From assembly GCA_030144725.1 (NCBI GenBank), contig JASKMD010000027.1:363796-427795 (forward strand): DNA of 64,000 bases. Direction: 5' to 3'. Under the pieces are notes generated by a model. It was given only the letters and a program-made list of their open reading frames with translations. It was not told where the DNA came from and ran no database searches. A program made the position numbers and the translations under genes. This DNA comes from Haematococcus lacustris (Eukaryota > Chlorophyta > Chlorophyceae > Chlamydomonadales > Haematococcaceae). Positions 26,139-58,951 of the stretch are shown here, one piece after another; the first letter of the stretch is position 1, and each line of letters starts with the position of its first letter.

Positions 26139-26905
26139 GCTACAGTACTGTAGGGGTCTACAGTACTGTAGACACCTACAGTACTGTAGACACCTACAGT
26201 ACGGTAGACACCTACAGTACTGTAGACATCCTACAGTACTGTAGACACCTAAAGTACTGTAGACACCCTACAGTACTGTAGACACCTACAGTACTGTAGA
26301 CACCTACAGTACTGTAGATGTCTACAGTACTGTAGGTGTCTACAGTACTGTAGACATCCTACAGTACTGTAGACACCTACAGTACTGTAGACACCTACAG
26401 TACTGTAGACACCTACAGTACTGTAGACACCTACAGTACTGTAGACATCTACAGTACTGTAGACATCTACAGTACTGTAGACATCTACAGTACTGTAGAC
26501 ATCTACAGTACTGTAGACACCTACAGTACTGTAGACATCCTACAGTACTGTAGACACCTACAGTACTGTAGAGACCTACAGTACTGTAGACACCCTACAG
26601 TACTGTAGACACCCTACAGTACTGTAGACACCTACAGTACTGTAGATACCTACAGTACTGTAGACACCTACAGTACTGTAGACATCCTACAGTACTGTAG
26701 ACACCTACAGTACTGTAGACACCTACAGTACTGTAGACATCCTACAGTACTGTAGACATCCTACAGTACTGTAGACACCTACAGTACTGTAGACACCCTA
26801 CAGTACTGTAGACACCCTACAGTACTGTAGACACCTACAGTACTGTAGACACCCAACAGTACTGTAGACACCTACAGTACTGTAGACACCTACAGTACTG
26901 TAGGC
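26139..26905. repeat. Main left array of the palindrome CTACAGTACTGTAG
   Basis: About forty copies with an 18-19 bp period. The 14-mer is a perfect palindrome; the 4-5 base spacers vary (ACAC, ACATC, ATGT, ACACC). Occasional point changes occur (TACGGTAG at about 26205). Each copy can form a short hairpin or bind a dimeric protein. Confidence 0.97.
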
Positions 26906-28460: not shown

Positions 28461-28467
28461 TAGGGTT

Positions 28468-29423
28468 GGGTTGGGCTGGGCTGGGCTGGGCTGGGCTGGG
28501 CTGGGCTGGGCTGGGCTGGGCTGGGCTGGGCTGGGCTGGGCTGGGCTGGGCTGGGCTGGGCTGGGCTGGGCTGGGCTGGGCTGGGCTGGGCTGGGCTGGG
28601 CTGGGCTGGGCTGGGCTGGGCTGGGCTGGGCTGGGCTGGGCTGGGCTGGGCTGGGCTGGGCTGGGCTGGGCTGGGCTGGGCTGGGCTGGGCTGGGCTGGG
28701 CTGGGCTGGGCTGGGCTGGGCTGGGCTGGGCTGGGCTGGGCTGGGCTGGGCTGGGCTGGGCTGGGCTGGGCTGGGCTGGGCTGGGCTGGGCTGGGCTGGG
28801 CTGGGCTGGGCTGGGCTGGGCTGGGCTGGGCTGGGCTGGGCTGGGCTGGGCTGGGCTGGGCTGGGCTGGGCTGGGCTGGGCTGGGCTGGGCTGGGCTGGG
28901 CTGGGCTGGGCTGGGCTGGGCTGGGCTGGGCTGGGCTGGGCTGGGCTGGGCTGGGCTGGGCTGGGCTGGGCTGGGCTGGGCTGGGCTGGGCTGGGCTGGG
29001 CTGGGCTGGGCTGGGCTGGGCTGGGCTGGGCTGGGCTGGGCTGGGCTGGGCTGGGCTGGGCTGGGCTGGGCTGGGCTGGGCTGGGCTGGGCTGGGCTGGG
29101 CTGGGCTGGGCTGGGCTGGGCTGGGCTGGGCTGGGCTGGGCTGGGCTGGGCTGGGCTGGGCTGGGCTGGGCTGGGCTGGGCTGGGCTGGGCTGGGCTGGG
29201 CTGGGCTGGGCTGGGCTGGGCTGGGCTGGGCTGGGCTGGGCTGGGCTGGGCTGGGCTGGGCTGGGCTGGGCTGGGCTGGGCTGGGCTGGGCTGGGCTGGG
29301 CTGGGCTGGGCTGGGCTGGGCTGGGCTGGGCTGGGCTGGGCTGGGCTGGGCTGGGCTGGGCTGGGCTGGGCTGGGCTGGGCTGGGCTGGGCTGGGCTGGG
29401 CTGGGCTGGGCTGGGCTGGGCTG
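28468..29423. repeat. (GGGCT)n pentanucleotide array, about 190 copies
   Basis: An uninterrupted run of GGGCT over about 955 bp with no visible substitution. The long frames through it (Gly-Leu-Gly-Trp-Ala or Ser-Pro-Ala-Gln-Pro repeats) exist in several frames on both strands because the period is five. Confidence 0.99.
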
Positions 29424-30255: not shown

Positions 30256-30940
30256 AAGGCTACAGTACTGTAAGTGGTCTCTCGAGGTACCTCGAGGTAC
30301 CTAGAGGTACTGTAGATGTTTACAGTACTCTAAATGTCTACAGTACTGTAGATGTCTACAGTACTGTAGATGTCTACAGTACTGTAGGTACCTACAGTAC
30401 TGTTAATGGTCTCTCGAGGTACCTCGAGGTACCTACAGTACTGTAGATGTCTACAGTACTGTAGATGTCTACAGTACTGTAGATGTCTACAGTACTGTAG
30501 ATGTCTACAGTACTGTAGGGTGTCTACAGTACTGTAGATGTCTACAGTACTGTAGGTACCTACAGTACTGTAAATGGTCTCTCGAGGTACCTCGAGGTAC
30601 CTACAGTACTGTAGATGTCTACAGTACTGTAGATGTCTACAGTACTGTAGATGTCTACAGTACTGTAGATGTCTACAGTACTGTAGGTACCTACAGTACT
30701 GTAAATGGTCTCTCGAGGTACCTCGAGGTACCTACAGTACTGTAGATGTCTACAGTACTGTAGATGTCTACAGTACTGTAGGTACCTACAGTACTGTAAG
30801 TGGTCTCTCGAGGTACCCCGACAGTACTGTAGACATCTACAGTACTGTAGGGGTCTACAGTACTGTAGGTGTCTACAGTACTGTTCGTGTACTCGCGAGG
30901 TACCCCGACAGTACTGTAGACACCTACAGTACTGTAGCAT
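30256..30940. repeat. Right array of CTACAGTACTGTAG with a second palindrome, CTCGAGGTACCTCGAG
   Basis: About thirty copies of the 14-mer with an 18-bp period. They are grouped into higher-order blocks separated by TGGTCTCTCGAGGTACC segments (near 30271, 30405, 30571, 30706 and 30800). The spacer holds a 16-bp perfect palindrome, CTCGAGGTACCTCGAG. The last copies are degraded to GACAGTACTGTAG. Confidence 0.96.
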
Positions 30941-31074
30941 GGCCGTATCTCACCAACCGCGCAAAATCACGAATTTTAGTTTCGACCCCCAATCTTACAA
31001 TGCCTTCATTTGACTATGTACCAAGTCCGAGGCTCCGAATCTCAAAAATGCTGTTACTAATTTGCCTGAGTGTC

Positions 31075-31501
31075 ACTATCAACCGTCCGCCATGGTCCTT
31101 TGTGCGCACCCAGTTCCTGGCCTACATCGGCGATGATTTGATTGACCATGTTTCTGCTTCTCGTCAACGCCTCATTGGCACGCACAACCGGCTGCAGATG
31201 TCTGCTGGTATGTCCTTGCAGTCCTATGCCACTGAATTTCGGAACCATGTCGTGCGCATGGGTGCCAACCAACTATCTGATGTGGTGCAAGTGGATCTGT
31301 TTGTGCAAGGCCTGTCTCATGAGCTACGAAGCCGGGTTGCTGTGAACCCTTTCTCCGGTCATGCTTGGCCCCACCTACCTGCAGTGATTGCTGCTGCTCA
31401 AGGTGTTGAGCGCATGTTGATGGCAGTGGCTGCCAGCAATGCTCGTGCCGATGTCGTTGCCCCCATGCAGAACGTCATTGCTGCCGTTGTGCCACCCATT
31501 G
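31075..31501 (+). pseudogene. gag: Element A gag, part 2 (C-terminal half of capsid-like domain)
   Basis: The frame resumes with RPPWSFVRTQFLAYIGDD and continues through MSLQSYATEFRNHVVRMG and DLFVQGLSHELR, matching the second half of Ty3/gypsy Gag (the Y-x-x-x-F and F-x-x-G-L helices). The codon broken at 31501 is completed at 58952 after element B and one CATTG duplication are removed. The tail (residues VVAPMQNVIAAVVPP) leads into the nucleocapsid part. Confidence 0.85.
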
Positions 31502-31662
31502 TGTAACGAAGCGAGGTTCTTCCTAGGGGAAATAACCGAGCAGTTGCATGAGATCCCACCGTCATAACTCCCAGTAGGGTGACGGTGGCGTGTGACGGCT
31601 GGCCGCTGGCCTATTTACCCGAGGGCCGCTAGAGAGTTGGGGATTCTCGTTATCAGAGGCAT
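31502..31662 (+). repeat. Element B 5' LTR, first part
   Basis: Matches 58661-58821 with three differences (near 31528, 31573 and 31618). It is cut by the LINE, whose target duplication (TTATCAGAGGCAT) spans 31650-31662. Confidence 0.96.
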
Positions 31663-31744
31663 GACTTTTTCGGTTGGCAACAACCGGAGGAGTTTTCTGC
31701 AACACACACGACGCTGTTCACCAAACGCTGTACACGACTACACG

Positions 31745-31759
31745 ATGCGCCAAAAATGA
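31745..31759 (+). promoter_or_regulatory. Four-codon upstream ORF overlapping the LINE start codon
   Basis: ATG CGC CAA AAA TGA: the uORF stop (31757-31759) overlaps the main ATG (31756-31758) as ATGA. This is a termination-reinitiation type arrangement. Seen directly; a regulatory role is inference. Confidence 0.5.
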
Positions 31760-34700
31760 ACCCCAATGATAGGTGGAGCGACGCGGCGTCTCTTGAGACG
31801 GCCGGGATGCTGAACGCGGTTAGCTACTGCGTCAGCACTATGCCGGGTAAGCCCAGATGGTCAGCGATGATCAAAGCAATTGTTATCCTGATGATGTTAC
31901 AGCTGACATATTGCTGCAACCCGAACCAAGGCCACAATAGCTCTGCGCACACATCCACCCGCATAGCTCGCTGCCCAAATAGCCTTCCACAGGGAGAACA
32001 TTTCTGGACTGGACGTAACAGCCGCCGAAACCCGATGTGGCAGCCAGAAAACAAGCGCTCGCAGCCTTGCTTAGCTATACAGCACTGCGCCCCACAAAAC
32101 CCCATACAGCGACAAGAGACTAGGCCTGCTCTGCCACAGCCGTGCATTACCACACTCTGCCCTGAGCCGACGTATGCCTACAGACACCACAAACCATCGC
32201 CAAAGGGAAACACCCTGCGGACCACCCTGATGGGAAACACCCTGACGGATTGCTATGTACTGCCAAAGGGAAACACCCTGCGGACCACCCCGAAGGGAAA
32301 CACCCTGACGGATTGCTATGAACTGCCAAAGGGAACACCCCTGCGGCCCCCCCCGATGGGCACACCCCTGACGGACTGCTACGAACTGCCAAAGGGAGCA
32401 CCCCTGCGGCCCCCCCCGATGGGAATACCCCTAAGGAACAGCTCTGCTCAGGCAACCCTAGGGCCCGACTCAACTATTGACATTCAAGTATGTGATGCAC
32501 AACCAATCCTACACATGTTACCCTTGCTATGCGCAGAAATGAACTACTGGCCTGCCACGATACAGCCCCATGCCCAAAGCCCAACCATGCAGGCCGGTGA
32601 GGCTGGCGGAGCACAGCCAGCCCACTGCATGCCAGAAGCGCACGCCCCAGCCACGCACGGCATGCTTGCCATGACGCAGCCCCGTGTTCAATGCCCAACC
32701 ATGCAGGCCGGTGAGGCTGGCGGAGCACAGCCAGCCCACTGCATGCCAGAAGCGCACGCCCCAGCCACGCACGGCATGCTTGCCATGATGCAGCCCCGTG
32801 TTCAATGCCCAACCATGCAGGCCGGTGAGGCTGGCAGAGCACAGCCAGCCCACTGCATGCCAGAAGCGCACGCCCCAGCCACGCACGGCATGCTTGCCAT
32901 GACGCAGCCCCGTGTTCAATGCCCAACCATGCAGGCCGGTGAGGCTGGCGGAGCACAGCCAGCCCACTGCATGCCAGAAGCGCACGCCCCAGCCACGCAC
33001 GGCATGCTTGCCATGACGCAGCCCCGTGCCCAATGCCCCACCATGCAGGCCGGTGAGGCTGGCGGAGCACAGCCAGCCCACTGCATGCCAGAAGCGCACG
33101 CCCCAGCCACGCACGGCATGCTTGCCATGACGCAGCCCCGTGTTCAATGCCCAACCATGCAGGCCGGTGAGGCTGGCGGAGCACAGCCAGCCCACTGCAT
33201 GCCAGAAGCGCACGCCCCAGCCACGCACGGCATGCTTGCCATGATGCAGCCCCGTGTTCAATGCCCAACCATGCAGGCCGGTGAGGCTGACGGAGCACAG
33301 CCAGCCCACTGCATGCCAGAAGCGCACGCCCCAGCCACGCACGGCATGCTTGCCATGACGCAGCCCCGTGTTCAATACCCCACCATGCAGGCCCGCGAGG
33401 CACGCGGAGCCCACCATGTACCAGCAGAGCACGCTCCAGCCATACACGCTGGCACCATGCCGCCCTATGAAGCACAGCCAGCCAAGGAGCAGACAGGGAT
33501 GCTCCATTCATGCATGCTGATGGATACCAGCAGAGACGTTGGTACGATTGCTGACAAGACCTACAAGACACATGTCCCATGTAAGGATGCCCTCCATGAC
33601 ATCAAACAAACCTACTTGCAATGGAAGGGCATGCATTGCATATTCATAGCAGTAGCCTGTGCATGGTGGTGGATTCATCACCATGCAACACTTCACCTCA
33701 CTCCGATAATCTCTCAGTCCATCTCTCAGACCATCTCTCAGTCCCAAAACTGCTTTCGAAGGCATTGCAAAAGGCTGCAAAGATGGAGAGCCATCTCCAC
33801 TACATCGGCCTTCGTCAATTTCCTTTACATAGACGGGACTATCGATAGACAAACCGCCATACTCAACCTCACAGTCTGCATGCACACCTGGACTACACAA
33901 GGCCACTACACTGTGACGGGAGGCAAGTCCTCAGTAATCGTTCATCACTACAACACCACTCTTCAACGCCACACTATTTACAGAATCACCATCTTAGATA
34001 AACAACGACGCCCTACCAACGTCATCCCCATGGACTACCTTAAGACCGCCATCCAATGGCTGGGCATTTTGAGCACGAGCTACTGCGCCGTGGCGATCAC
34101 ATACATTGCATGGCTCCTACTTGCATGCGGGGACGTTGAAGCCAACCCGGGACCCAACACACACTACGTCCAGCAAGTGGGTAGCAGCACATGCCAAGCC
34201 AACTCCCTTAACAACATCGCGGGACGGAAATGGGTCAGCATCGACGATATCGACACCTTCTACGCACAAAGGCTCACGCAGCTCAACACACCGGACGAAC
34301 TTAAAGCCTGGCAGATGGCAAGAGGCGCAGGAGGCTACGACGATGGAGTAATAGACCTGTACCTCACATCTAAGTACGGCCTGATGGCGACAAGCGTCGC
34401 CGACCTCAGGCGACCCCAAGACTGGACTAAACACAACCTCAATAGTCTAGCACAGCGCCACGAAACGACTGCATTCCTATGCAAAAGACTGGGCCACAGC
34501 ATGGCCATGACAAGCCTCAATGGGAAATGGTCACTCAAGGACTCCCTAGACCCAGCACCCACTCCCTTGGCACGCATCGCAATGTCAACAAAGCAAACGC
34601 ACCACCAGCTCTTCATCATCACCCCCACCCACACAACCCGTACGAGTGCACAGTTAGCACTCTGCCATACCAAGAAGATAAATCACATCATCAGCCATAC

Positions 34701-37700
34701 CAACCACAACACTGGCCTACCCGTACCCATCTATATGGAAGCACAACACAAATGTTTTTGCTTGGTACACGCCATCAACATGGCCATGGGGAGACCAATG
34801 ATCAACCCAAATGATGTCCTCACACACTGCAACCACCTGGCCACTCACCTCCAAGACCTAGCGAGCAGAGCCAGGGGGGAGAACAAGCACATACCCCTGC
34901 CCGACCGTACCCCACACATATATGATGAGGAGGGAAACTTCAACATCCACTCCATGAACCACTACCTTTATCACAACTACAAGACCCTACACCTGGCAAC
35001 GCAGGAGCTGCCCCATGACAACATCACTAGGGCAACGCTAAGTACCCTCATGGGCAATGAGGACAATCACATCAGCAACGCAGCCATTCTCATCAACAGG
35101 AACCATGCGACTACCCTTAGGTACCTAGACAACACCTGGTACTGGCTGGACTCACAAGCTACACACGCTAGGCGGCTGCTGACCACAGCAGACTGGAAGG
35201 AGCTGCAAGGAGGGCTAATCCTAATTAAGCAAGGCATGCAACATAAGAATCTCATCGAACCCATCTTCTGGTTAGCAGACCCATTGGAGCAAGCCACCAC
35301 GACACAGCTAGAGCAACACTACCAAAGACCGGACCCCATAGACCTGAGCGGCCACGACGACCAACCACCAGCAATACCACCTCCAGCAGCGACACCACCT
35401 TCCCTCGCCACGAGCAACAACGATCTTAAACGCAAAAATACCTCTGCAGAGGCAGACCCGCCGACCCGGTCGCGACACCGCGAAGCTGCCACCACGAAGG
35501 AAGACGCAGCCACACCTCCCCCCCCAACACGAAACGAGAAGCCAAGCACCAAGACAGGCCCTAAGAAACCACGATCGAAGAAAGGAGCCAGAAACACCAG
35601 CCACAGCAAAGAGGGGCTCACGCAAACGCTCATGTCAAGGTACCTAACCACCACCCAGGCCACCACTTCCAGCCCGTCAGTCCCATGCCCAACCACAGAG
35701 GCCCCCCCCAACATCCCCACACAAGCTCACCAGACCCCCAGCAGACAACACCTGACGCTCACAACTCTTAACGTCCGGGGCCTCTACCGGGCTAGAAGGG
35801 ACGTCGCCCACCTCATCCACCACCACCACCCCGACATCCTGATCTTGACAGAGACGAAGACACAGCACAAGAAAGACACACCGGGATGGCTGAGAGTAGC
35901 CACCCAGGACTACACACTGCACCGACACGGTGGCCACAGTGAAGTCCTCATTGGCATCAAGCATGACCTAGCCATTCCGACGCAAGCCACCCTAGCACCA
36001 CCAAGCACGGAGGCGGAAGTAAACTCCAGATGCGTCATCCTGACTCTTAGCCAGCACCACAGCGACAACCTCACCATCGTAGCAACGTACTGGCCATCGG
36101 GCTGCAACGAAGACGCGCTCCCACTGCGGGAGAAGATGCAGCAACACATACGCACAGCCACAAGACACCTGCCCGGCTCCCTCATTCTCGCCGGTGACTT
36201 GAATGCCACGATGAAAACAGAAGACCGCTCCGAACACACTGAATACACCCAGGACCGCATGATGAGGGAGTTTGCCACAGAGATGCGCCTGCCCGAAGCC
36301 GACCCCGGCGACCGGGCCTGGACCTACCAACAACCACACTGCAACAGCCGCATCGACGCCATTCTGACGCGCGACGCACGACCAGGCCCCGAGCATCGCA
36401 CCAACGTAGACACACGCACATATCTCAGCGACCACAGACCACTCACTGCCACACTGACTACAGCCAGATTGGGCATACACCTGGCACAAACACAACAGCC
36501 CCAAAACCAAAAGCACACTGTTCTCACCACACCCATCAACAACAGCGACAGGGAAGCCTTCCGCCTAGCCGTGCAACAACCCAGCTCAGGCGCACCACAA
36601 CTGCACGCACAACTGGCAGCCTACCTGTCACCTCTCTTTACGGAAGCCACAGCCTTCTTGGCGAACCTGGACAAGGCCAACCCACACCAACCCAAACGCC
36701 TGACGCAGCTAGCAGGCCTCCACCCAAGGCAAGCTGTAGACATGGCAGCCACCATGCTCACAACCCTTTTGAAAACCTGCAGGACGACCGCCATGAAGAC
36801 TTGCACAACAAAGACACTGACTAGAGGGGGCCAACACTACCAACGCAGGACCATGTGCAGAATCAGATTGGCGCTAGGCAAGAAGCTCAAGACCACTAGA
36901 AATCTCAGCCGGCAGGCTAGGCAACTATTCAAACAGAATGGCGCCCACCCAACGATCGAGGAGCTCATCCCAGATACAGACACAAGCAACACAGCGATCA
37001 GGGAGGCGGTGCTAGCACGTCAAGACGACGACCCAACCGACAACCACGTGCAAGCCGCACTAGCTAAGCTGACAAACACCTACCGCGACCAAATCCACCA
37101 GCTGGACGATGACGACTCCGCACTCGCCATCGCACAGGCCCGGCTCCGAATGCAACAACTAATAAGCACCCAGCCCAAGAAAGCCAACAAATATATTCTA
37201 CGCCCATCCCGCACGAGCCACAAAGGCCTACAAGCGCTCACAGACCCCGCCACCAGAAGAATTTGTACCGCCCCGGCCGACCTTAACCGGATTATCATAG
37301 CCGCATACGGGCAGAAGCTATCACCCCCAACGCCCAAAACCGGCCACTACACAGACACACAGACAAGAAACTATCCCTGGGCCCGAGCCAAAGCGGACGA
37401 CCCCTTCACACTACATACCTGCAAAAGCATTCACTGGATGCACACAGCCATCATGGACAAAGCTAGCTTCCAAGAATGCCTCAGCAGGCTGGCAGGAGGC
37501 AAAGCCCCAGGACCAGATGGCATCGAGAACGAGATCATCAAGATGTTGCCATGGGAGATGAGGGACACCATCCACCAACTGTTCATCATCATGTGGGCCA
37601 CTGGCTGCACACCCACAGCATGGAAAACCAGTGACACCTGCCTACTCTACAAGGACAAGGGCCAGGAAACAGACCTCAACGCCTACAGACCGGTAGGACT

Positions 37701-38589
37701 GGCCAACACCATCTACAAGCTATGGACCAGCCTCATTACCAAGACACTCTATGAGTACGCCGAGGCCAATGGGATGCTGAGCAAATGCCAAGCAGGCTTC
37801 CGCTCTCACAGGGACACCACTCAGCAACTACAAATGCTAGTCATGGCCCTTGAAGACGCTAAACTTGCTAAAGCAGACATCTATGCCCTCATGGTCGACT
37901 TCACAAGTGCATTTAACACCACATGTCAAGACAAACTGCTATGGATCATGCACGACCTTGGCTTCCCCACCGACGCCACAGACGCGGTGAAGGACCTATA
38001 CACGGGCGCTACGACGCGCTTCAAGACCCCGTACGGCCCTACTGATCCGATACCCGTAGACCGGGGCACCATCCAGGGCGACTCACTCTCACCCTTCCTG
38101 TTCCTCATCTACATCGAACCCCTACTGCGTTGGCTCCAAGTAGGAGCGCGGGGGTACAAATTCCAGTCAGTGGAAAACGACAGCGACAACAGATACACTA
38201 TAGGGAGCATCGATTATGCGGACGACGTCGCCATCCTCTGTAACTCCATTAGCAACACACGCGTCCAGGCGGACAAGCTCTCAGCCTACTCGGACTGGGG
38301 CCACCTCATCATATCACACAGCAAAACCCTCGCCACGGCGGCACTACACAAAGCGCATCAATCCGGCCGATGCAGCACCCAAGAAGACGCGGAGAAGGAA
38401 GCCCGCAAGCAACTGCAAGACCTACGCCTACAAGGAAAACCGGTCACCTTCCTCCGCCCGACAGCACCCTTTACCTACCTAGGAGTCATGCTCACCATGA
38501 CACTCAACTGGAAACCACAACACACGGCCCATGATAACACAGCTAAGGCAGAAACTAGACAGACTGCGGCGCTCCTTCGCCAGCGCTAG
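31756..38589 (+). CDS. LINE polyprotein, segment 1: N-terminal protein, 2A motif, Josephin-like protease, APE endonuclease, reverse transcriptase
   Basis: The frame opens at ATG 31756 (context AAAAATGA) and is open for 2,277 codons. Residues 1-799 have two in-frame repeat blocks and three hydrophobic stretches, the last just before GDVEANPGP (2A, residues 792-800). From about 990 a Josephin-like cysteine protease is visible: Gln in EAQHK, catalytic-type C1002-x-x-H-x-x-N, EEGNFNIHS, His1117 and Asp1132 in WYWLDS. The APE domain (about 1335-1570) has N1339, E1366, GDLN at 1480-1483 and SDHRP with H1560. The RT follows with GGKAPGPDG near 1915, DFTSAF at 2048 and YADD at 2154-2157. True coding leaves this frame near 38535, where a one-base shift moves it to the next segment. 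Confidence 0.92.
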   Translation: MNPNDRWSDAASLETAGMLNAVSYCVSTMPGKPRWSAMIKAIVILMMLQLTYCCNPNQGHNSSAHTSTRIARCPNSLPQGEHFWTGRNSRRNPMWQPENKRSQPCLAIQHCAPQNPIQRQETRPALPQPCITTLCPEPTYAYRHHKPSPKGNTLRTTLMGNTLTDCYVLPKGNTLRTTPKGNTLTDCYELPKGTPLRPPPMGTPLTDCYELPKGAPLRPPPMGIPLRNSSAQATLGPDSTIDIQVCDAQPILHMLPLLCAEMNYWPATIQPHAQSPTMQAGEAGGAQPAHCMPEAHAPATHGMLAMTQPRVQCPTMQAGEAGGAQPAHCMPEAHAPATHGMLAMMQPRVQCPTMQAGEAGRAQPAHCMPEAHAPATHGMLAMTQPRVQCPTMQAGEAGGAQPAHCMPEAHAPATHGMLAMTQPRAQCPTMQAGEAGGAQPAHCMPEAHAPATHGMLAMTQPRVQCPTMQAGEAGGAQPAHCMPEAHAPATHGMLAMMQPRVQCPTMQAGEADGAQPAHCMPEAHAPATHGMLAMTQPRVQYPTMQAREARGAHHVPAEHAPAIHAGTMPPYEAQPAKEQTGMLHSCMLMDTSRDVGTIADKTYKTHVPCKDALHDIKQTYLQWKGMHCIFIAVACAWWWIHHHATLHLTPIISQSISQTISQSQNCFRRHCKRLQRWRAISTTSAFVNFLYIDGTIDRQTAILNLTVCMHTWTTQGHYTVTGGKSSVIVHHYNTTLQRHTIYRITILDKQRRPTNVIPMDYLKTAIQWLGILSTSYCAVAITYIAWLLLACGDVEANPGPNTHYVQQVGSSTCQANSLNNIAGRKWVSIDDIDTFYAQRLTQLNTPDELKAWQMARGAGGYDDGVIDLYLTSKYGLMATSVADLRRPQDWTKHNLNSLAQRHETTAFLCKRLGHSMAMTSLNGKWSLKDSLDPAPTPLARIAMSTKQTHHQLFIITPTHTTRTSAQLALCHTKKINHIISHTNHNTGLPVPIYMEAQHKCFCLVHAINMAMGRPMINPNDVLTHCNHLATHLQDLASRARGENKHIPLPDRTPHIYDEEGNFNIHSMNHYLYHNYKTLHLATQELPHDNITRATLSTLMGNEDNHISNAAILINRNHATTLRYLDNTWYWLDSQATHARRLLTTADWKELQGGLILIKQGMQHKNLIEPIFWLADPLEQATTTQLEQHYQRPDPIDLSGHDDQPPAIPPPAATPPSLATSNNDLKRKNTSAEADPPTRSRHREAATTKEDAATPPPPTRNEKPSTKTGPKKPRSKKGARNTSHSKEGLTQTLMSRYLTTTQATTSSPSVPCPTTEAPPNIPTQAHQTPSRQHLTLTTLNVRGLYRARRDVAHLIHHHHPDILILTETKTQHKKDTPGWLRVATQDYTLHRHGGHSEVLIGIKHDLAIPTQATLAPPSTEAEVNSRCVILTLSQHHSDNLTIVATYWPSGCNEDALPLREKMQQHIRTATRHLPGSLILAGDLNATMKTEDRSEHTEYTQDRMMREFATEMRLPEADPGDRAWTYQQPHCNSRIDAILTRDARPGPEHRTNVDTRTYLSDHRPLTATLTTARLGIHLAQTQQPQNQKHTVLTTPINNSDREAFRLAVQQPSSGAPQLHAQLAAYLSPLFTEATAFLANLDKANPHQPKRLTQLAGLHPRQAVDMAATMLTTLLKTCRTTAMKTCTTKTLTRGGQHYQRRTMCRIRLALGKKLKTTRNLSRQARQLFKQNGAHPTIEELIPDTDTSNTAIREAVLARQDDDPTDNHVQAALAKLTNTYRDQIHQLDDDDSALAIAQARLRMQQLISTQPKKANKYILRPSRTSHKGLQALTDPATRRICTAPADLNRIIIAAYGQKLSPPTPKTGHYTDTQTRNYPWARAKADDPFTLHTCKSIHWMHTAIMDKASFQECLSRLAGGKAPGPDGIENEIIKMLPWEMRDTIHQLFIIMWATGCTPTAWKTSDTCLLYKDKGQETDLNAYRPVGLANTIYKLWTSLITKTLYEYAEANGMLSKCQAGFRSHRDTTQQLQMLVMALEDAKLAKADIYALMVDFTSAFNTTCQDKLLWIMHDLGFPTDATDAVKDLYTGATTRFKTPYGPTDPIPVDRGTIQGDSLSPFLFLIYIEPLLRWLQVGARGYKFQSVENDSDNRYTIGSIDYADDVAILCNSISNTRVQADKLSAYSDWGHLIISHSKTLATAALHKAHQSGRCSTQEDAEKEARKQLQDLRLQGKPVTFLRPTAPFTYLGVMLTMTLNWKPQHTAHDNTAKAETRQTAALLRQR
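32204..32430 (+). repeat. 63-bp in-frame coding repeat in the LINE N-terminal protein
   Basis: About 3.6 copies of a 21-residue unit (PKGNTLRTT..GNTLTDCY) with progressive drift to PKGTPLRPPP. Confidence 0.9.
32587..33430 (+). repeat. 114-bp in-frame coding repeat in the LINE N-terminal protein, seven copies plus a degenerate one
   Basis: The 38-residue unit starts MQAGEAGGAQPAHCMPEAHA. Seven copies run from 32587 to 33384 with a few substitutions; an eighth degenerate copy follows (MQAREARGAHHVP). The period is a multiple of three, so copy number can change without breaking the frame. Each unit has two Cys and several His. Confidence 0.96.
34126..34155 (+). other. 2A-type ribosome-skipping motif (CGDVEANPGP)
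   Basis: The residues D-V-E-A-N-P-G-P fit the 2A consensus D-[VI]-E-x-N-P-G-P exactly. Such motifs make the ribosome skip the Gly-Pro bond, releasing the upstream protein and continuing translation. The break would fall between residues 799 and 800. A hydrophobic stretch (AVAITYIAWLLLAC) precedes it. 2A motifs are known from trypanosome L1Tc and some animal non-LTR elements; function here is inferred from sequence. Confidence 0.88.
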
Positions 38590-39985
38590 ACAAGCCATCC
38601 ACATTATTAAAACAGCGATCATTCCCAGCCTGGCTTATAGCTTCTGCGTGGTACCATGCACCCCGGGGGACCTAGACCTCTTTGACAGAGCAGTCAACCA
38701 ATGCGTCAAGCACAAGCTCAACCTCCCACTGGGCACACCTAATGCCGTCATCCGGGACGACATAGACAAGCTCGGCCTCGGCATCAGCTCAGCAGCCCAA
38801 GAGTACCATGCCAGGAACACCACAGCCCTCGTCTCCAGTCTCCAGTCCGCGGACAACACATACGCACACATATCGAGATGCATGCTCCACAAACAGATCA
38901 CCTGGCTCTACGCACAGGCCGCTAAACATGGACACCGAATTCCCAACCTATTGCAACACACCCTGCGGGCCAGACAACTCCTGCATACCACCACAGCAAA
39001 CCTCTTCGCCACACACGAAGGGGCACCCCTCTACCCCAAGGAGACTAAAGCACTTGGGCAACTCATAACACAGAGCGCTAGCCCGCTGCCACGGGACATA
39101 GTCAGCGCATGCATTACATGCCTCAAGAGCCTAGGACTGACACACCCTTCGGAGCTCATCTGCCAGGATAACATACACATTATGTCAGGGGATAGCCTCA
39201 GGAAACGCTTCGGCACTAAGGTGAAACAAAAGCACATCATCGCTTTAAATAGACTTACGGCCATGGCGACCATGGAACACTGCCCAACCGCGACGGAAGC
39301 CAAGACCATCCTTGGGAGACGGGATACAACGCTTACCCTACCAGCAGACCAGCGGCGGATCCGAGCCTGGGCCGCAGGGCTCACAGAGCTCACTCCTCAC
39401 ACCACCGCCCACACCGGGCCCCGCTACACGGACATCCGAGCATACATGACAACCAAGACACCCGCAAAGGACACACAGCCGCCTACACCGACCCCCATAA
39501 CGGCGACCGCGAGATCCAAACTCACAAACAACGCCCCCAAGCCACCGACTGCGAAACAGCCCACGCCGCAGCCCAGGATCGGCAGCAAAAGACCAGCGGA
39601 AGACAGACACACAGAAGCGGACGATCGACACACCCAGACCATCCCTGACGTAGTGACACACATACCCATCATGACCCTGGCCAATCTCAGTACATGGAAA
39701 GCCGATACTGCACGCCAACACAAAAACGAGCAGCTAGGGATCATGCTAGGAGCCATGTATGACCACCAAGAGTCCATCACTGCCATTGACGGATGGCACT
39801 GGAACGGCAACAACCAAGAAAGCTATTACAACGTCCACTGGAGGCCCACCATCATAGAGAAATGGGCTCTCCAAATGTACAAGAAGGAAGGCTACACGCC
39901 CGCCCACACAGAAGACATCTGCAGAGCAGATGCAGAACATGCTTGCACATGCGAACTATGCTGGGAACCCAAAGAGACAGCCCCA
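38535..39985 (+). CDS. LINE polyprotein, segment 2: RT thumb/linker region and first half of a PHD finger (shifted frame)
   Basis: Continuation of the LINE polyprotein in the next frame. It starts with TQLRQKLDRLRRSF and IIPSLAYSFCVVP, typical of the helices after the RT palm. The frame is open for 1.45 kb to TGA 40001-40003. A Pro/Lys/Thr-rich linker lies around 39440-39640. It ends with CTCELCWEPKE, the first zinc ligand pair of a PHD finger whose rest is in the following frame. The two flanking one-base shifts compensate each other. They could be real lesions or consensus errors. Confidence 0.85.
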
Positions 39986-42780
39986 TGTGCATCAACTGTA
40001 TGAGAGCCTACCACCCGGCCTGCCTAGCCAAGACAGGCCTAGCGGGGCAAGCGAGGGATGACCACTGGCTCTGCCCAGTCTGCGCACACGGCGAAGATGA
40101 CCTCAAAACCGCCATGCGAAAGTCAGTGGAGACGGACCTAATAAAGGCCCACTGGCACCCCACAACTGAACCTAAGCCGCTAATTCTAGCACATATCGAC
40201 TACACCGATAAGAAGAATGAGTACGACGCGGACAATAGTAAGAGACAAGAGGCGAGACGCCGACCACTCGACGCGGCCCTCCCAGAGCATACCCGGCAGG
40301 GTCTGCCCGACCCCCACACCTGGATACCCCGCTGCACCGACCTGCACTCCAGAGCCACATTCCACACCTCACCGGTTGACCCGCAAACAGACATCGTCGG
40401 GACGGGAAGGTGTGAAATCACACTCCAGAATCACTCCCACATCACCATCCAAGCTATGTGTGGAGGGAGCCAAGGACCCAACCTGCCCCAACACAGCCTC
40501 ATTGAACACGTAGTAGCCCATGATGAGGCGGGGCGCACAGTGGGCCTGATCAACAAGACCAATTACCAAAATCTTACCACATGGCTGCAGCACACACCAC
40601 ACCCACGGGACCCAGCCATGGAGCTAGCAGCTCTCCTACGTAGAAATAATACACAAAGCACCCCCCAACCACTCCTAGCAGCACAAAACAAGGCCATCAC
40701 CACCCTCTACAACACACAGTACTTTCCCAGCACCGTCCAGAGATGGGCCAATCCACTCACGGTCAGGGCTGGGACCACTACCTACTGGAGCCCAGACATC
40801 AACGACACAGCCTATGGGGCACACCACAACTGCCTCCTCGTGAGACACACAGGGCTCTCTACATGGAACGTCCCAGCTGAGGATGCCCTGGCCCTAAAAT
40901 GCATCAAACATGCAATACACTCTGCCACAATGGAGGAGGCCACGGCCACTATCCTGCTCATCCCTGGAAAGAAAGGCATCTCATATCCTAAACACATAGC
41001 CATGCTCAAAAGCTACCCGGAGTACTGTCAGCACCTGGCCACCATCCCCCTTGACAAATCAAAGGCAGCTACCAAGTCATGCAAACACGCCACGCTGCTC
41101 ACCTACATCGTTTGGAACAAGGCGGGGCAACAACTCGTCACAAAAGGGAATCTACAAGGCTGGCTGGCCAACACAGCCACGGCGCTACACCCCAGACCCG
41201 ACCGGCACCCTAAACACAACCAACCCTCGAAACACGTCCAGCCCACCCAACTGCCCAGCGGGCACTACAAGCACATGCACCTCCCGGCAGACCGCGAGCT
41301 CCCCGCCACGGGGCACATGCGCCAACCCAACCAGATCGCACCCCCGTTCTGCACAACATCAAGTATGGTCATTCCCAACTGGAGGACTGTCACGTACACA
41401 GATGGCAGCTGCATGCAAGAAACGGATCGCGCCCCGTCGCGGAAAGTGGGAGCGGGAGTGTACACACCGGAGAATGACGAGCGGCTCACCATTGCCCTAC
41501 CCGACCACAGCACCATAAACAGAGCAGAGCTCGCAGCTATCCACGCGGCCATCAAATCGGGAGCAACCCATATCGCCACTGACAGCCTCTGCTCCATATA
41601 CCAAATACGGAGAGCACTGGCCAACCCAATGTCGCTCCGCACACATCACCACAGGGACATATTGGCCGACATCGCCACCCTGATCATGAACAGCCGCGAC
41701 ACTATACACCTACGAAAAGTCCGGGCACATTCCGGCATCATCGGAAATGAAGCGGCAGACACCCTGGCCAAACACGCGGCTATGTACCCGGAGCAGGCCC
41801 ACACTCAGGCCCCGCACGAGCACACCGAACAACAGACCTGGCTGAGCGCAACCACCGAAACTGGCACCACCATACCGCTACCGGACTGCCGACACAGCGT
41901 ACGCACACATATGCGCGCCAAACACAAACTGGGACTCGCAAACCAAGATAGCATCTACTACCAGATGTCCCAAGACATCGCCAGGGTCGCAGCCAAAGGG
42001 TCATGTGAAAGAGTAATGCTCGACCCGGGCATCCCGACCGCTGCCCAAAGAACAGCACTGCTCTACCGCACTGGCGGGCTCTACAACCAGAAATTGGCGA
42101 TGCGCTGGGGGAAGGCCGCGGACGATCGGTGCCCACTCTGCGGCGAGGCCGATAGTGCTACTCACCTTCTCTCGGGATGCACCCGCACTGCAGCTTTAGT
42201 ACAAGAGCGGCACAACGGGGCGGGACGCCTCATCACTAAAGCGATCAGTAAAGGCTCGCAAGGAGGGTGCATTACATACACTGACATCGGTAGCCACGCA
42301 CGCGGCGAGCAAAACGACATGGATCTCCCTAACACCACCTTAAGCGGCACCCTTGCAGCCATAGGCCTGCCAACAGCACACAATACGACAACCCGCCCTG
42401 ATATCATCATGGTCAGCACCAAAAGCAACAAAAGAAACAGGGATAAGGACGTGTCCAACAAGCACGTCACTATATTGGAGATTAAATATTGTGCCGACTC
42501 TCGATGGGCCGAACAACTAGAAAAAGCCAGCACACAACACGCAGCCCTCGCCACAGCCATCCGGGAAGCTGGCAACACCGTTACCATCCGACCTATCCTA
42601 CTTGGCATAGGCGGCATTACATACGAAGCACACACCAAGCAACATATGAGAGAGTTGGGTGTAACACACACCAACACCATCAAACTACTTAACAAGCTCA
42701 CCCGGCACGCAGTGATAAGCTCACATAGCATCGCCAAAACAAGCTACAGACTCAGAGCAGGGAAAGGGGATTGGGGCTAG
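39985..42780 (+). CDS. LINE polyprotein, segment 3: PHD finger (second half), RNase H, zinc finger and restriction-like endonuclease
   Basis: Back in the original frame. MCINCMRAYHPACL...WLCPVC completes a C4HC3 PHD finger (about 39988-40084). RNase H follows, with YTDGS (Asp at 41401), RAELAAI (Glu at 41527), TDSL (Asp at 41581), RAHSG (His at 41728) and NEAAD (Asp at 41758). The C-terminus has a CCHC finger CPLCGEADSATHLLSGC (about 42130-42180), then RPD (42394-42402) and EIK (42478-42486). That RPD...E-x-K pattern with a preceding CCHC is the signature of the restriction-like endonuclease of early-branching LINEs. The stop is TAG 42778-42780. Having both APE and restriction-like nucleases in one element is the Dualen hallmark. 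Confidence 0.9.
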   Translation: MCINCMRAYHPACLAKTGLAGQARDDHWLCPVCAHGEDDLKTAMRKSVETDLIKAHWHPTTEPKPLILAHIDYTDKKNEYDADNSKRQEARRRPLDAALPEHTRQGLPDPHTWIPRCTDLHSRATFHTSPVDPQTDIVGTGRCEITLQNHSHITIQAMCGGSQGPNLPQHSLIEHVVAHDEAGRTVGLINKTNYQNLTTWLQHTPHPRDPAMELAALLRRNNTQSTPQPLLAAQNKAITTLYNTQYFPSTVQRWANPLTVRAGTTTYWSPDINDTAYGAHHNCLLVRHTGLSTWNVPAEDALALKCIKHAIHSATMEEATATILLIPGKKGISYPKHIAMLKSYPEYCQHLATIPLDKSKAATKSCKHATLLTYIVWNKAGQQLVTKGNLQGWLANTATALHPRPDRHPKHNQPSKHVQPTQLPSGHYKHMHLPADRELPATGHMRQPNQIAPPFCTTSSMVIPNWRTVTYTDGSCMQETDRAPSRKVGAGVYTPENDERLTIALPDHSTINRAELAAIHAAIKSGATHIATDSLCSIYQIRRALANPMSLRTHHHRDILADIATLIMNSRDTIHLRKVRAHSGIIGNEAADTLAKHAAMYPEQAHTQAPHEHTEQQTWLSATTETGTTIPLPDCRHSVRTHMRAKHKLGLANQDSIYYQMSQDIARVAAKGSCERVMLDPGIPTAAQRTALLYRTGGLYNQKLAMRWGKAADDRCPLCGEADSATHLLSGCTRTAALVQERHNGAGRLITKAISKGSQGGCITYTDIGSHARGEQNDMDLPNTTLSGTLAAIGLPTAHNTTTRPDIIMVSTKSNKRNRDKDVSNKHVTILEIKYCADSRWAEQLEKASTQHAALATAIREAGNTVTIRPILLGIGGITYEAHTKQHMRELGVTHTNTIKLLNKLTRHAVISSHSIAKTSYRLRAGKGDWG

Positions 42781-42889
42781 GAAGGGTTTCTCCATCACCC
42801 AGGGTAGGTGGTGGGAGCAGGCCGCGCCTCAGGCGGAAGCTCCTTCCTCAATGCACGCCGGCTCCACGCCGGAGTAGTCTTCTTCTTCT
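42781..42889 (+). other. LINE 3' UTR
   Basis: About 109 bp with a small hairpin (CCGGCTCCACGCCGG near 42859) and a terminal TCTTCTTCTTC run before the target duplication. Such short 3' tails are probably what the RT recognises. Confidence 0.75.
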
Positions 42890-42902
42890 TTATCAGAGGC
42901 AT

Positions 42903-43027
42903 TGTGTAACACACATTGCCACCCAACCGGAAGTAGCGGACTGTGGAACGCGAGGCAGGAGCGTCCCACTCACACGGAAGACATACAAGGTGAGGCAGAG
43001 CAGCAGTTCTGCCACCCCTTTGTTACA
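42903..43027 (+). repeat. Element B 5' LTR, second part
   Basis: Matches 58822-58946 with no difference noticed and ends TTACA. Together with 31502-31662 it makes 286 bp, equal to the 3' LTR. Confidence 0.96.
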
Positions 43028-52480: not shown

Positions 52481-53250
52481 CACAGATGTTGGTTAAATGA
52501 GCCCGGCATCTGTGCAGATGCATGCCGATGCCTTTAGGAAAAGCGACATCTGTGCAGATGCCGGTTATTAAATCTGTGCAGATACTAATAAAGGCGACAT
52601 CTGTGCAGATGTCGGTAATTAAATCTGTGCAGATGCACAAAAGGGCGACGTCTGTGCAGATGCCGGTTATATTTTAAGGACGACATCTGTGCAGATGCTA
52701 ATAAAGGCGACATCTGTGCAGATGCCGGTTATTAAATCTGTGCAGATGCTGATAAAGGCGACATCTGTGCAGATGTCGGTAATAAAATCTGTGCAGATGC
52801 ACAAAAGGGCGACATCTGTGCAGATGCCGGTTATATTTTAAGGACGACATCTGTGCAGATGCTAATAAAGGCGACATCTGTGCAGATGCCGGTTATTAAA
52901 TCTGTGCAGATGCTGATAAAGGCGACATCTGTGCAGATGTCGGTAATTAAACATGTGCAGATGCACAAAAGGGCGACATCTGTGCAGATGCCGGTTATAT
53001 TTTAAGGACGACATCTGTGCAGATGCTAATAAAGGCGACATCTGTGCAGATGCCGGTTATTAAATCTGTGCAGATGCTAATAAAGGCGACATCTGTGCAG
53101 ATGTCGGTAATAAAATCTGTGCAGATGCACAAAAGGGCGACATCTGTGCAGATGCCGGTTATAATTTAAGGACGACATCTGTGCAGATGCTAATAAAGGC
53201 GCCATCTGCACAGATAAATACCTCGACATATGCACAGATGCCAAGTAGTG
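52481..53250. repeat. Left subterminal array of CATCTGTGCAGATG, 164-bp higher-order repeat
   Basis: More than 20 copies of ATCTGTGCAGATG sit in a higher-order unit. The landmark GCACAAAAGGG occurs at 52635, 52799, 52963 and 53127, exactly 164 bp apart. Within a unit the linkers alternate (CCGGTTAT, CTAATAAAGGCGA, TCGGTAAT). The arms CATCTG/CAGATG are complementary around a TG centre. Confidence 0.96.
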
Positions 53251-53322: not shown

Positions 53323-54356
53323 GGGGGTATTTCCAATGCGGGGTAACGGGGTAGAGGGGAACGGGGGAATACACTTTTTACCCCCCGTTTCCAATGCGGG
53401 AAATGGAGGTTGGGTTCGGTTATATTGCGAGTTGTGGCGAGTGGCCGCGAGCTTAACGAGAGCTTCATCCCTTTGCACGACCACGACATCCACCTTTGTT
53501 CATCCAAATGTTCACTTTTGGTGATCGTCGTCGGCGCGAGGCTGAGGATGAGCTAACGGTTGCCGTAGTGATACGGCTTATTGGTAATCCGAAACCGGAC
53601 CTAACGTCGGCACACATTTGGTGACAGCTCCTGGCTCAAACATTGAAGTGATACGTGTTTGGTGACCCTCTATGTCTATGGGCTGGGCTGGGCTGGGCTG
53701 GGCTGGGCTGGGCTGGGCTGGGCTGGGCTGGGCTGGGCTGGGCTGGGCTGGGCTGGGCTGGGCTGGGCTGGGCTGGGGGGGCTGTAGAGTGTGTGGCTGT
53801 AGAGATTGGGAGGTGGCATTTGTAGACGCCTAGTGCATTGCAGGGTTGGGCAAGGCCAAGCGGATCAGTTTGATGGTTGCACATGCAAGAAGCCTTAAGA
53901 TGCAGTGATGGGTGCAGGTGCAGGACCAAGCATCGCTTCAGCTTTGTGTGTTCCCGTGCGTGAGTGTTGGGGCGCTGTTGCATCGCTTTTGCAAGCCATA
54001 TGAATCGCTTCACCTGACTCCTGACTAGTCCTGGTCACGCTCTATGCGTGAGCCTCCTGGCTGCGTGCCATCTGGCTGCGAGCCATCGGGCATCGTTCGT
54101 ACCCCCTCATTTTTCCCCCGAGCACTTTTTTTACTACCGCGGGGTTCGGCTGGGGTAGCAAAAAGCGAGGAGGGGAGGGCGGTTAGGGACCAACCACCGC
54201 CATTCCCCTGGGGGAATTTGCCAACGGTGTAAACGGACTCGCAGGGGAACGGCAGTTGGACGGCGGTTAGAGAGGGAATGAAAATTCCCCCGCTGCGCTT
54301 TTCCCCTCATTCCCCCGTTACCCTCCGAGAAATTCCCCCGCATTGGAAATACCCCC
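53323..54356. mobile_element. PIF/Harbinger-like non-autonomous element (1,034 bp) nested in CACTA-like element 2
   Basis: Terminal inverted repeats start GGGGGTATTTCCAATGCGGG at the left end and, read inward, at the right end (right end 54337-54356). They are flanked by a 3-bp TCT (53320-53322 and 54357-54359). G-rich ends with 3-bp duplications are typical of PIF/Harbinger. An internal copy of the end motif (TTTCCAATGCGGGAAA) occurs at about 53387-53402. No transposase frame is convincing. Confidence 0.75.
53681..53776. repeat. (GGGCT)n array, about 19 copies
   Basis: Same pentanucleotide as the 955-bp array in CACTA-like element 1, here inside the Harbinger-like element. Confidence 0.97.
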
Positions 54357-54904
54357 TCTTCCATTATTCAACAATCTGTGTGATATCTGCATGAAGTTTT
54401 CGCAAAGGTGGCGTGAAGGAAGCCAAGGAACCGCGAAGGAGCTTGGATTGCCCCATATAGCAGCAATGAGCAGCCAGGAGCAGCCAACAAAAATCGTCGC
54501 CAAAAGGCTAGCCACGAGCCAGCCAGCCGCTTAGGCGACCAGATGCCATCAGGTTAAGCGATAGGATCAAGATATAGCGACAGAAAACGGAAGGAGGCGC
54601 AGCGATGCAGCGACACAGCGATGCAAAGATGCGGCAAATGCATGAGGTGCAACTAGGACACGTAGCCCGAAGCCTGTGAGACGGAGCGGAAGAGGAGTGG
54701 AGGGGCCCGGAGGCGGTCAGGAGCCATGCATGAGACGAAGCTGGGTGCACTTGAAAAAAAGTTGGGTGCACCCACACAAACCCCACCCTAGCGAATGGTG
54801 AGTATTCTATCTTGCAGTCATGTGGCTCCAAGTACCTTGCCAGACTATTTGCCAACCACTGAATTGTTGCATGTTCAATGGTCCCAACCTCCCCTTCCCT
54901 ACAC

Positions 54905-55262
54905 CCAGCCCAGCCCAGCCCAGCCCAGCCCAGCCCAGCCCAGCCCAGCCCAGCCCAGCCCAGCCCAGCCCAGCCCAGCCCAGCCCAGCCCAGCCCAGCC
55001 CAGCCCAGCCCAGCCCAGCCCAGCCCAGCCCAGCCCAGCCCAGCCCAGCCCAGCCCAGCCCAGCCCAGCCCAGCCCAGCCCAGCCCAGCCCAGCCCAGCC
55101 CAGCCCAGCCCAGCCCAGCCCAGCCCAGCCCAGCCCAGCCCAGCCCAGCCCAGCCCAGCCCAGCCCAGCCCAGCCCAGCCCAGCCCAGCCCAGCCCAGCC
55201 CAGCCCAGCCCAGCCCAGCCCAGCCCAGCCCAGCCCAGCCCAGCCCAGCCCAGCCCAGCCCT
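54905..55262. repeat. (CAGCC)n array, about 70 copies
   Basis: Uninterrupted AGCCC pentanucleotide, the complement of the GGGCT arrays elsewhere in the window. Confidence 0.98.
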
Positions 55263-56818: not shown

Positions 56819-56837
56819 ATGTAAGAGTCGATGAAAT

Positions 56838-57080
56838 AGTCGACATCTGTGCAGATGAAGCCACGACATCTGCACAGCCAAGCCGCGAATGTAATAGTCG
56901 ACATCTGTGCAGATGCTATAGACAACATCTGCACAGCCAAGGCTCGAATGTAATAGTCGACATCTGTGCAAATGTCGTCGTCAGCAGCTGCACAGATGTT
57001 GGTCGCGGTATACGACATCTGTGCAGATGTCGACTAGCAGCAGCTGTGCAGATTAAGGACAACCGACATCTGTGCAGATT
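56838..57080. repeat. Right subterminal array of CATCTGTGCAGATG
   Basis: About nine copies in both orientations (ACATCTGTGCAGATG and CATCTGCACAG), ending about 145 bp inside the right TIR. Confidence 0.94.
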
Positions 57081-58946: not shown

Positions 58947-58951
58947 CATTG

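Follow-up and report, generated by a model that had tools for sequence, protein, structure and literature searches.

A LINE of Dualen-type architecture in Haematococcus lacustris encodes a StopGo motif, tandem Josephin-like domains and a PCIF1-like domain

Background

Dualen/RandI elements, long interspersed nuclear elements (LINEs) that were reportedly described from Chlamydomonas reinhardtii by Kojima and Fujiwara in 2005, are said to include a cysteine protease among their features. Dualen encodes both an apurinic/apyrimidinic-type endonuclease (APE) and a restriction-like endonuclease (RLE), and Dualen/RandI is placed among the carriers of RNase H (PMC4640811); Dualen families are recorded in all core-Reinhardtinia species compared (PMC8226300). 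NeSL and Utopia LINEs encode an N-terminal Ulp1-like protease, have the RLE only and are mostly target-specific (PMC4640811), and StopGo (2A) signals are described from APE-type LINEs (Odon 2013, as cited in PMC4981915 and PMC12846837). Here we analyze a LINE in a window of 64,000 nucleotides from Haematococcus lacustris (the window is the whole stretch of DNA that was analyzed, positions 363,796-427,795 of its contig; the assembly comprises 308 Mb). By its architecture, the element is of Dualen type, and it also carries a 2A motif, a pair of Josephin-family domains, a PHD finger and a domain resembling the methyltransferase PCIF1. We consider it probable that this is a giant Dualen-type LINE encoding a StopGo polyprotein, in which the Josephins would serve as deubiquitinases and the PCIF1-like domain would be non-catalytic.

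The element shares with Dualen/RandI the APE and RLE pair, a reverse transcriptase (RT), RNase H, a cysteine protease (said to be a feature of the type), a green algal host and a 3' tail of short repeats. APE and RLE lie in one element and both show low ratios of nonsynonymous to synonymous substitution (dN/dS), RNase H is matched by Pfam at 2e-19, and the cysteine protease is a Josephin. As compared with the description of the type, the protease here is a Josephin and is doubled, 2A, PHD and PCIF1-like regions are observed, and open frames often reach 3,500-4,900 aa; the tail consists of TTC repeats, while a table in PMC3747384 gives (ATT)n and (CTATTT)n for green algal RandI. NeSL and Utopia likewise are RLE-type LINEs with a protease of the ubiquitin-like-modifier families upstream of the RT, and one relative of our element, P0105, has a Ulp1; however, their protease is Ulp1, their only nuclease is the RLE and most are target-specific, whereas here we find a Josephin, and the 17 readable downstream flanks differ. 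The 2A-bearing LINEs share the StopGo signal, and LLLACG in our element resembles, by eye, the LLLLSG-like upstream class of PMC12846837; those elements are titled APE-type, whereas ours combines APE with RLE and has 2A directly ahead of the protease.

A literature search covering titles and the starts of abstracts, with most subscription journals outside it, gave no retrotransposon-encoded Josephin or PCIF1 domain; co-mentions of Josephin and retrotransposon include retrocopies of the ataxin-3 gene, not an element-encoded protease. Work on Dualen and work on 2A in non-LTR elements (LTR, long terminal repeat) did not overlap in the same literature, no joint search for Dualen and 2A having been made. 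Because most subscription journals lay outside the search, these negatives are weak evidence of novelty.

Results and discussion

Domain order and coding layout

The features of the element, all on the forward strand, are as follows (ORF, open reading frame; UTR, untranslated region; JOS1 and JOS2, first and second Josephin domains).

31650..31662, +, target-site duplication, left copy, TTATCAGAGGCAT, 13 bp
31663..42889, +, whole LINE insertion, 5'-complete, about 11.2 kb (13-bp duplication on both sides and empty site in the 3' LTR)
31756..38589, +, ORF A, 2277 aa: pre-2A protein, 2A, two Josephin domains, APE, RT
31756..34152, +, pre-2A protein with a hydrophobic segment (residues 36-55) and 38-aa tandem repeats (32563-33410)
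34132..34155, +, 2A/StopGo core DVEANPGP after WLLLACG (residues 793-800)
34153..34620, +, JOS1, first Josephin-like domain, C813/H914/D929 (Pfam 0.0029 alone, below cut-off; own profile 3e-12; dN/dS 0.111)
34717..35226, +, JOS2, second Josephin domain, C1002/H1117/D1132 (Pfam 1.6e-11 alone; dN/dS 0.175)
35752..36450, +, APE-type endonuclease (Pfam PF03372; GDLN and SDH motifs)
36817..36837, +, LTRGGQH, resembling a ubiquitin tail, candidate cut site between APE and RT (ORF A residues 1688-1694)
37633..38505, +, RT, YADD at residue 2154 (Pfam PF00078)
38501..38589, +, ORF A/ORF B overlap, first frame break of the window copy (relatives stay in one frame)
38501..40003, +, ORF B: post-RT region to the first cysteines of the PHD finger
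39790..40003, +, ORF B/ORF C overlap, second frame break, within the PHD finger (relatives stay in one frame)
39790..42780, +, ORF C: PHD end, PCIF1-like domain, RNase H, zinc finger, RLE
39919..40095, +, PHD finger, interrupted in the window copy by the second frame break (Pfam, relatives, family alignment)
40552..41034, +, PCIF1-methyltransferase-like domain, NVPA instead of NPPF (family profile; dN/dS 0.086)
41377..41790, +, RNase H (Pfam PF00075, 2e-19)
42052..42765, +, CCHC zinc finger and RLE (motifs; family alignment; dN/dS 0.114)
42781..42889, +, 3' UTR with two predicted conserved stem-loops and (TTC)n tail
42890..42902, +, target-site duplication, right copy

Profiles built from seeds and run over 130 proteins and the three ORFs place the domains in the order 2A, JOS1, JOS2, APE, RT, PHD, PCIF1-like, RNase H and RLE; their E-values were trained on hits and are strong by construction. 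Pfam alone finds RVT_1 (1.8e-21), Josephin (1.9e-12, 47.7 bits against a cut-off of 26, in two stretches) and Exo_endo_phos (2.1e-12) in ORF A, and RNase_H (2e-19) in ORF C, where the PHD finger, cut by the frame break, reaches only 0.0068 (16.9 bits, below the cut-off of 24). The RLE is recognized by C-x2-C-x7-H-x4-C at residue 781 of ORF C and RPD...EIK at residue 869.

The frames of ORFs A, B and C are 1, 2 and 1, respectively, so that the window copy as assembled shifts frame twice. Relatives are uninterrupted at both places, hence the two breaks belong to the window copy or to its assembly. The initial annotation had described a Dualen-type LINE that carries 2A, Josephin-like protease, APE, RT, PHD, RNase H and RLE in one polyprotein. 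Each of these domains is borne out by Pfam, motifs or relatives, as is the Dualen type as far as architecture goes, with APE, RLE, RNase H and cysteine protease all present; the relatives read through in one frame, and the window copy as assembled does not. A second Josephin-like domain (ORF A 800-955) and the PCIF1-like domain (ORF C 255-415) had been overlooked.

Two Josephin-family domains

Josephins are an established deubiquitinase family. JOS2 alone passes the Pfam Josephin model (44.7 bits, cut-off 26), and the residues named at the outset, C1002, H1117 and D1132, fall in the Cys, His and Asp columns of the Josephin alignment. A profile of an 11-sequence tandem alignment matches Josephin-2 (6pgv, 5.9e-8) and ataxin-3 (2dos, 4.2e-4), which, together with the curated Pfam model, upholds the earlier reading of the protease as a Josephin. 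As a single sequence against solved structures, JOS2 has a sperm protein as its top match (3e-4), with Josephin-2 third (0.42). We term JOS1 Josephin-like, since its relation rests on the family profile and the triad. Over 129 profile-aligned Josephin segments, the triad is nearly invariant where a letter is present: Cys in 113/113, His in 126/126 and Asp in 121/124. At the column that usually holds Gln, this residue is found in 36 of 37 second domains, while among the 36 first domains of Haematococcus the residue is Q in 14, V in 7, E in 7, R in 5 and K in 1, and 2 show a gap. The element's domains thus share sequence profile and Cys/His/Asp with ataxin-3 and Josephin-1/2, and differ in lying in tandem within a retrotransposon polyprotein.

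All 40 protein matches listed for the Josephin region are named Haematococcus lacustris (order Chlamydomonadales) and are up to 100% identical. In relatives, the Pfam model gives 26.8 bits in P0124, 25.1 in P0084 and 16.6 in P0150. In a Josephin tree, the first domains of Haematococcus form one group (support 77) and the second domains another (support 89). The tandem pairs of some metagenome elements group apart from these, suggesting that the doubling was repeated or reshuffled, though we are unsure of this since several branches are long.

A StopGo motif ahead of the proteases

From the composition of ORF A, a 2A core would be expected by chance 3e-6 times. The core found here fits (D/G/C/N)(V/I)ExNPGP, the expanded motif given in PMC12846837. 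NPGP occurs in 32 of the 40 listed Haematococcus proteins. Among 26 distinct Haematococcus sequences, the residues W, L, L, L, A, G, D, E, N, P, G and P of WLLLAxGDxExNPGP are 88-100% conserved, and each of the positions -59 to -10 at most 58%. The signal is present in 33 of the 36 Haematococcus proteins in which two full Josephins are preceded by more than 30 aa, and in 35 of 36 Haematococcus proteins having 2A the first Josephin match starts no more than 22 residues after its end. At the level of genomic DNA, the window has it, as do all those of the 20 copies that can be read at this place (19; L009 has N there). Outside Haematococcus, the expanded motif occurs in 3 of 17 proteins whose Josephin is preceded by more than 100 aa. 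Relatives with 2A ahead of a Josephin include P0092, P0127 and P0150, and P0105 and P0109 have 2A without Josephin. The metagenome protein P0092 has two 2A motifs around a Josephin-like fragment.

StopGo would split off the N-terminal repeat protein, a separation predicted from the motif. This pre-2A protein has no Pfam match; its C-terminal part is similar between subfamilies.

A PHD finger and a PCIF1-like domain without NPPF

In relatives, the PHD finger is whole in one frame and is matched by Pfam at 1.1e-6 (P0081) and 2.9e-7 (P0089).

PCIF1 is a cap-adenosine methyltransferase, and the cap is its substrate. Pfam alone finds nothing in the PCIF1-like region of the window. PCIF1_WW is however matched in all 12 relatives scanned, at E 0.0045 or below and above the curated cut-off in 7 of 12; nine of these relatives were already annotated with PCIF1_WW when chosen. 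A profile of five Pfam-matched relatives matches ORF C of the window at 4e-19, and no report at E 10 came from any of 200 shuffles. A further profile, made from seven segments including that of the window, matches solved structures of PCIF1 (6irv, 4.6e-6; 6irx, 6.5e-4). The domain thus shares with PCIF1 the profile match and the FASPL...FG region, and differs in having lost the catalytic NPPF: among 100 aligned segments, 51, from Haematococcus copies, have NVPA, and NPEY is commonest elsewhere (20). No NPPF is found among the listed motifs of the 100 segments, the nearest being a single HPPF, LPPY and NPPN. Loss of NPPF, together with the lowest dN/dS of the measured domains (see below), argues for a retained non-catalytic role. 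Most likely, the domain would bind RNA ends or the cap rather than methylate.

The LINE is not the only PHD-bearing retroelement in the window: at 61710-63830 on the minus strand, we observed a Gypsy integrase end with a chromodomain and a PHD finger (PHD 4.4e-11).

Selection and copy number

Selection was described on the window and 20 genomic copies, which were taken from 150 scored Josephin matches, mostly for long open frames, and lean towards intact copies. Pairs were kept only at 0.1<dS<1.2 (0.05<dS<1.2 for the pre-2A part). This gave 61/210 pairs for JOS1, 78/210 for JOS2, 183/210 for APE, 76/210 for the JOS2-APE linker, 91/210 for PHD (where the window row is partly out of frame), 135/190 for the PCIF1-like domain, 88/190 for RNase H, 89/190 for RLE, 115/190 for the PHD-PCIF linker, 147/171 for the PCIF-RNase H linker and 36/190 for the pre-2A part. 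Median pairwise dN/dS is 0.111 in JOS1, 0.175 in JOS2, 0.121 in APE, 0.141 in PHD, 0.086 in the PCIF1-like domain, 0.121 in RNase H and 0.114 in RLE; the JOS2-APE and PCIF-RNase H linkers have 0.431 and 0.304, and the last 130 codons before 2A 0.257. The PHD-PCIF linker (0.157) is as constrained as its neighboring domains and may belong to one of them. These values show that both Josephins and the PCIF1-like domain are kept about as tightly as the nucleases; they are a description and not a test, because pairs share history and copies were chosen for long frames. All 20 genomic copies have both Josephins and APE in one frame (L009 with an upstream stop and a shortened JOS1).

The LINE is abundant in the Haematococcus genome. 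The Josephin model gives 799 genome candidates; of 150 scored, among which the window copy is absent, all are above the cut-off, 149 are without internal stop and 46 sit in open frames no shorter than 3,500 aa, the longest being 5,825 aa. None of 14 control genomes gives a signal with this model. The 3' UTR gives 1,834 genome candidates, and each of 40 scored (window included) is at least 97% identical.

Relatives and an exchange of proteases

Metagenome relatives have the same domain order, and of 177 sequences two (P0021 and P0172) deviate from the succession of APE, RT, PHD, PCIF1-like, RNase H and RLE. Among the matches listed are 97 non-Haematococcus proteins, with RT in 97, the PCIF1-like domain in 76, RNase H in 68, RLE in 63, PHD in 60, APE in 59 and Josephin in 24; most lie on short contigs, and missing ends would be expected. 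A Josephin is present in 23 of the 32 non-Haematococcus proteins with more than 250 aa before APE, and a relaxed search gives Josephin fragments in P0117 and P0123 also. Six of the 32 have no protease by profile, Pfam or relaxed search.

The metagenome protein P0105 has no Josephin and instead a Ulp1 domain (1.3e-22); Ulp1 is a SUMO-protease family. In the RT tree (FastTree), P0105 is sister to P0127, which has two Josephins, with support 96. Between the two, a protease for ubiquitin-like modifiers would thus have been replaced by another of this kind. In the H. lacustris genome itself, the Ulp1 family (PF02902) is matched at 53 places; several of these lie in short frames that recur and contain TGA in frame, and they may represent exons or old elements.

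Insertion site and 3' end

Within the window, blastn aligns 31502-31662 with 58661-58821 (98.1%) and 42887-43027 with 58806-58946 (99.3%). Both matched pairs belong to the two LTRs of one Gypsy element, which start with TGTAACG, end with TTTGTTACA and are bordered by a 5-bp duplication, CATTG, at 31497 and 58947. The LINE sits in the 5' LTR of this host, and the uninterrupted insertion site is visible in the 3' LTR. Because the 3' LTR shows the empty site and TTATCAGAGGCAT flanks both sides, the ends of the LINE are 31663-42889, and the extent of 31756..42780 first assigned to it is extended on both sides. Judging from the likeness of the LTR parts, the insertions look young. Two further copies, the only ones checked in this way, have duplications of 11 and 12 bp and start within a few bases of the corresponding point; both are closely related to the window copy, with dS of 0.12-0.21 in the JOS1, JOS2, APE and JOS2-APE linker regions. 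With an RT, no LTR, duplications of varying length in 3/3 copies and a simple-repeat tail, the element is a non-LTR retrotransposon.

Site-specific insertion was considered and discarded: an apparent recurring downstream flank (31497, 42900 and 58819) is LTR sequence of the host Gypsy, and all 17 readable downstream flanks of further copies differ, the eighteenth (L032) being N. In 19 3' UTRs (the window and 18 of 20 copies; L031 and L042 yielded no 3' end), 61 of 102 columns are shared, and RNAalifold predicts two stem-loops (-29.3); all 19 finish in (TTC)n of varying length, followed by differing flanks.

An upstream ORF at 30574-31506 was rejected as ORF1 of the LINE, since the LTR of the inner Gypsy intervenes and the ORF seems part of an outer Gypsy-like element that resumes at 58947. 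It has a zinc knuckle by eye; Pfam gives a weak Otospiralin match below cut-off and no gag.

Proposed mode of action and alternatives

We propose that one mRNA is read as one polyprotein. At the 2A signal, the ribosome would release the N-terminal repeat protein, possibly an ORF1-like partner, and continue into an enzyme part that opens with the two cysteine proteases of the Josephin family and then runs through APE, RT, PHD, PCIF1-like domain, RNase H and RLE. The observed ends, tail and 11-13-bp duplications are consistent with insertion by target-primed reverse transcription from the 3' stem-loops with their (TTC)n tail. The Josephins would most likely act as deubiquitinases rather than as polyprotein processors. 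They may keep the element's own protein or ribonucleoprotein from ubiquitin-dependent removal or, alternatively, strip ubiquitin from target chromatin, where the PHD finger may bind histone tails. The exchange for Ulp1, seen once, favors removal of modifiers over self-cleavage.

Several observations weigh against this interpretation. JOS1 alone fails the Pfam model (17.9 of 26 bits), a seed profile of three domains other than JOS1 scores it at 15.0 bits where the best of 500 shuffles reaches 12.1, and it has Val at the usual Gln column; it may therefore be weak. Pfam gives no Josephin in the relative P0158, though the family profile finds one. The 2A motif is missing from 14 of the 17 non-Haematococcus proteins in which it was sought ahead of the Josephin, and the dN/dS pairs are non-independent. 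The exchange for Ulp1 is observed only once, and the longest frame among the 53 Ulp1-family matches of the H. lacustris genome is 427 aa. Finally, LTRGGQH, which 55 of the 61 Haematococcus proteins carrying both APE and RT contain, leaves self-cleavage possible for the Haematococcus host.

This last motif is the one candidate site that speaks for the 'self-processing' of the initial annotation, which otherwise has no positive support. A role of the Josephins in separating the nuclease, RT and RNase H/RLE portions of the giant protein would suit the 46 of 150 scored matches in frames of at least 3,500 aa with nine recognized domains or signals, the likeness of LTRGGQH to a ubiquitin tail, and the habit of C48-family relatives in viruses, which process polyproteins. 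However, LTRGGQH is found in none of the 97 other proteins, and no other GG site in the linkers of 25 proteins recurs across lineages, except a GGKAPGPDG-type RT sequence and PGGQH/PGGAH in P0078/P0084. StopGo, moreover, already offers a separation ahead of the enzymes, and we know of no Josephin that processes polyproteins. We thus regard processing as unlikely. The case for functionless passengers or decayed captures is weaker by far, and we hold it to be very improbable: the window copy is frame-broken, NPPF is lost and most first domains of Haematococcus are without the usual Gln, but JOS1 and the PCIF1-like domain have dN/dS as low as or below APE, RNase H and RLE (JOS2 somewhat higher), and Cys, His and Asp are near-invariant.

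The Dualen assignment also has a competitor, namely that the element belongs to a separate lineage which joined APE and RLE independently. No type Dualen/RandI or Chlamydomonas sequence appears by name in the protein matches listed (40; 120 of 230; 111), and the extra domains are unmentioned for Dualen in the accessible parts of the literature. The same nuclease pair and RNase H are nevertheless found here in a green alga of the type host's order, and the RT, compared with solved structures, matches best the R2 elements, which bear an RLE (1.7e-18), and L1 less well (1.1e-4), which would be compatible with an intermediate position. A separate origin therefore seems to us quite unlikely, somewhat more so than polyprotein processing.

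Beyond the deubiquitinase reading favored above, we may speculate, with clear reservations as to its likelihood, that StopGo frees an active deubiquitinase pair fused to the replication enzymes, that the PCIF1-like domain, derived from a methyltransferase and catalytically dead, holds the element's RNA by its capped 5' end, and that ubiquitin and SUMO proteases can be swapped between lineages. One polyprotein would then both guard itself from ubiquitin-based host control and hold its own transcript. To our knowledge, proteases in LINEs have no proven job. The Josephin pair under selection and the Ulp1 of one lineage raise the possibility that LINEs and their hosts contend over ubiquitin-like modifiers, which could be tested with two small domains. 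A PCIF1-derived domain without NPPF and with the lowest dN/dS measured suggests an RNA-binding role; we know of no such role in LINEs. The presence of StopGo, APE and RLE in one element may also be useful for understanding how LINEs changed from RLE to APE.

Nested retroelements and other repeats in the window

The region 31502-58946 is a nest of retroelements, with the LINE within the 5' LTR of a chromodomain Gypsy, itself seemingly within an outer Gypsy-like element (around 30938-31501 and 58947-61308). ORFs between the Gypsy LTRs have Pfam matches to aspartyl protease, RT, integrase and chromodomain; downstream, 59248-61308 holds the protease and RT of the outer element (Pfam).

An Rfam scan of the whole window at gathering scores gave no match. 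A tandem array at about 2200-22400, with a unit of roughly 2,620 bp, about 68% GC and the same ORF pattern in each copy, likewise has no Rfam match, and its one 280-aa ORF has no Pfam match. Short-unit arrays comprise GGGCT x192 at 28463-29423 (99% matches) as well as two shorter ones with 5-bp units, TGGGC at 53679-53777 and CCCAG at 54904-55261. Arrays with self-complementary unit parts (CTACAGTACTGTAG, ATCTGTGCAGAT) lie near and inside the retroelements, at 26140-26903, 30260-30937, 52539-53215 and 56831-56995.

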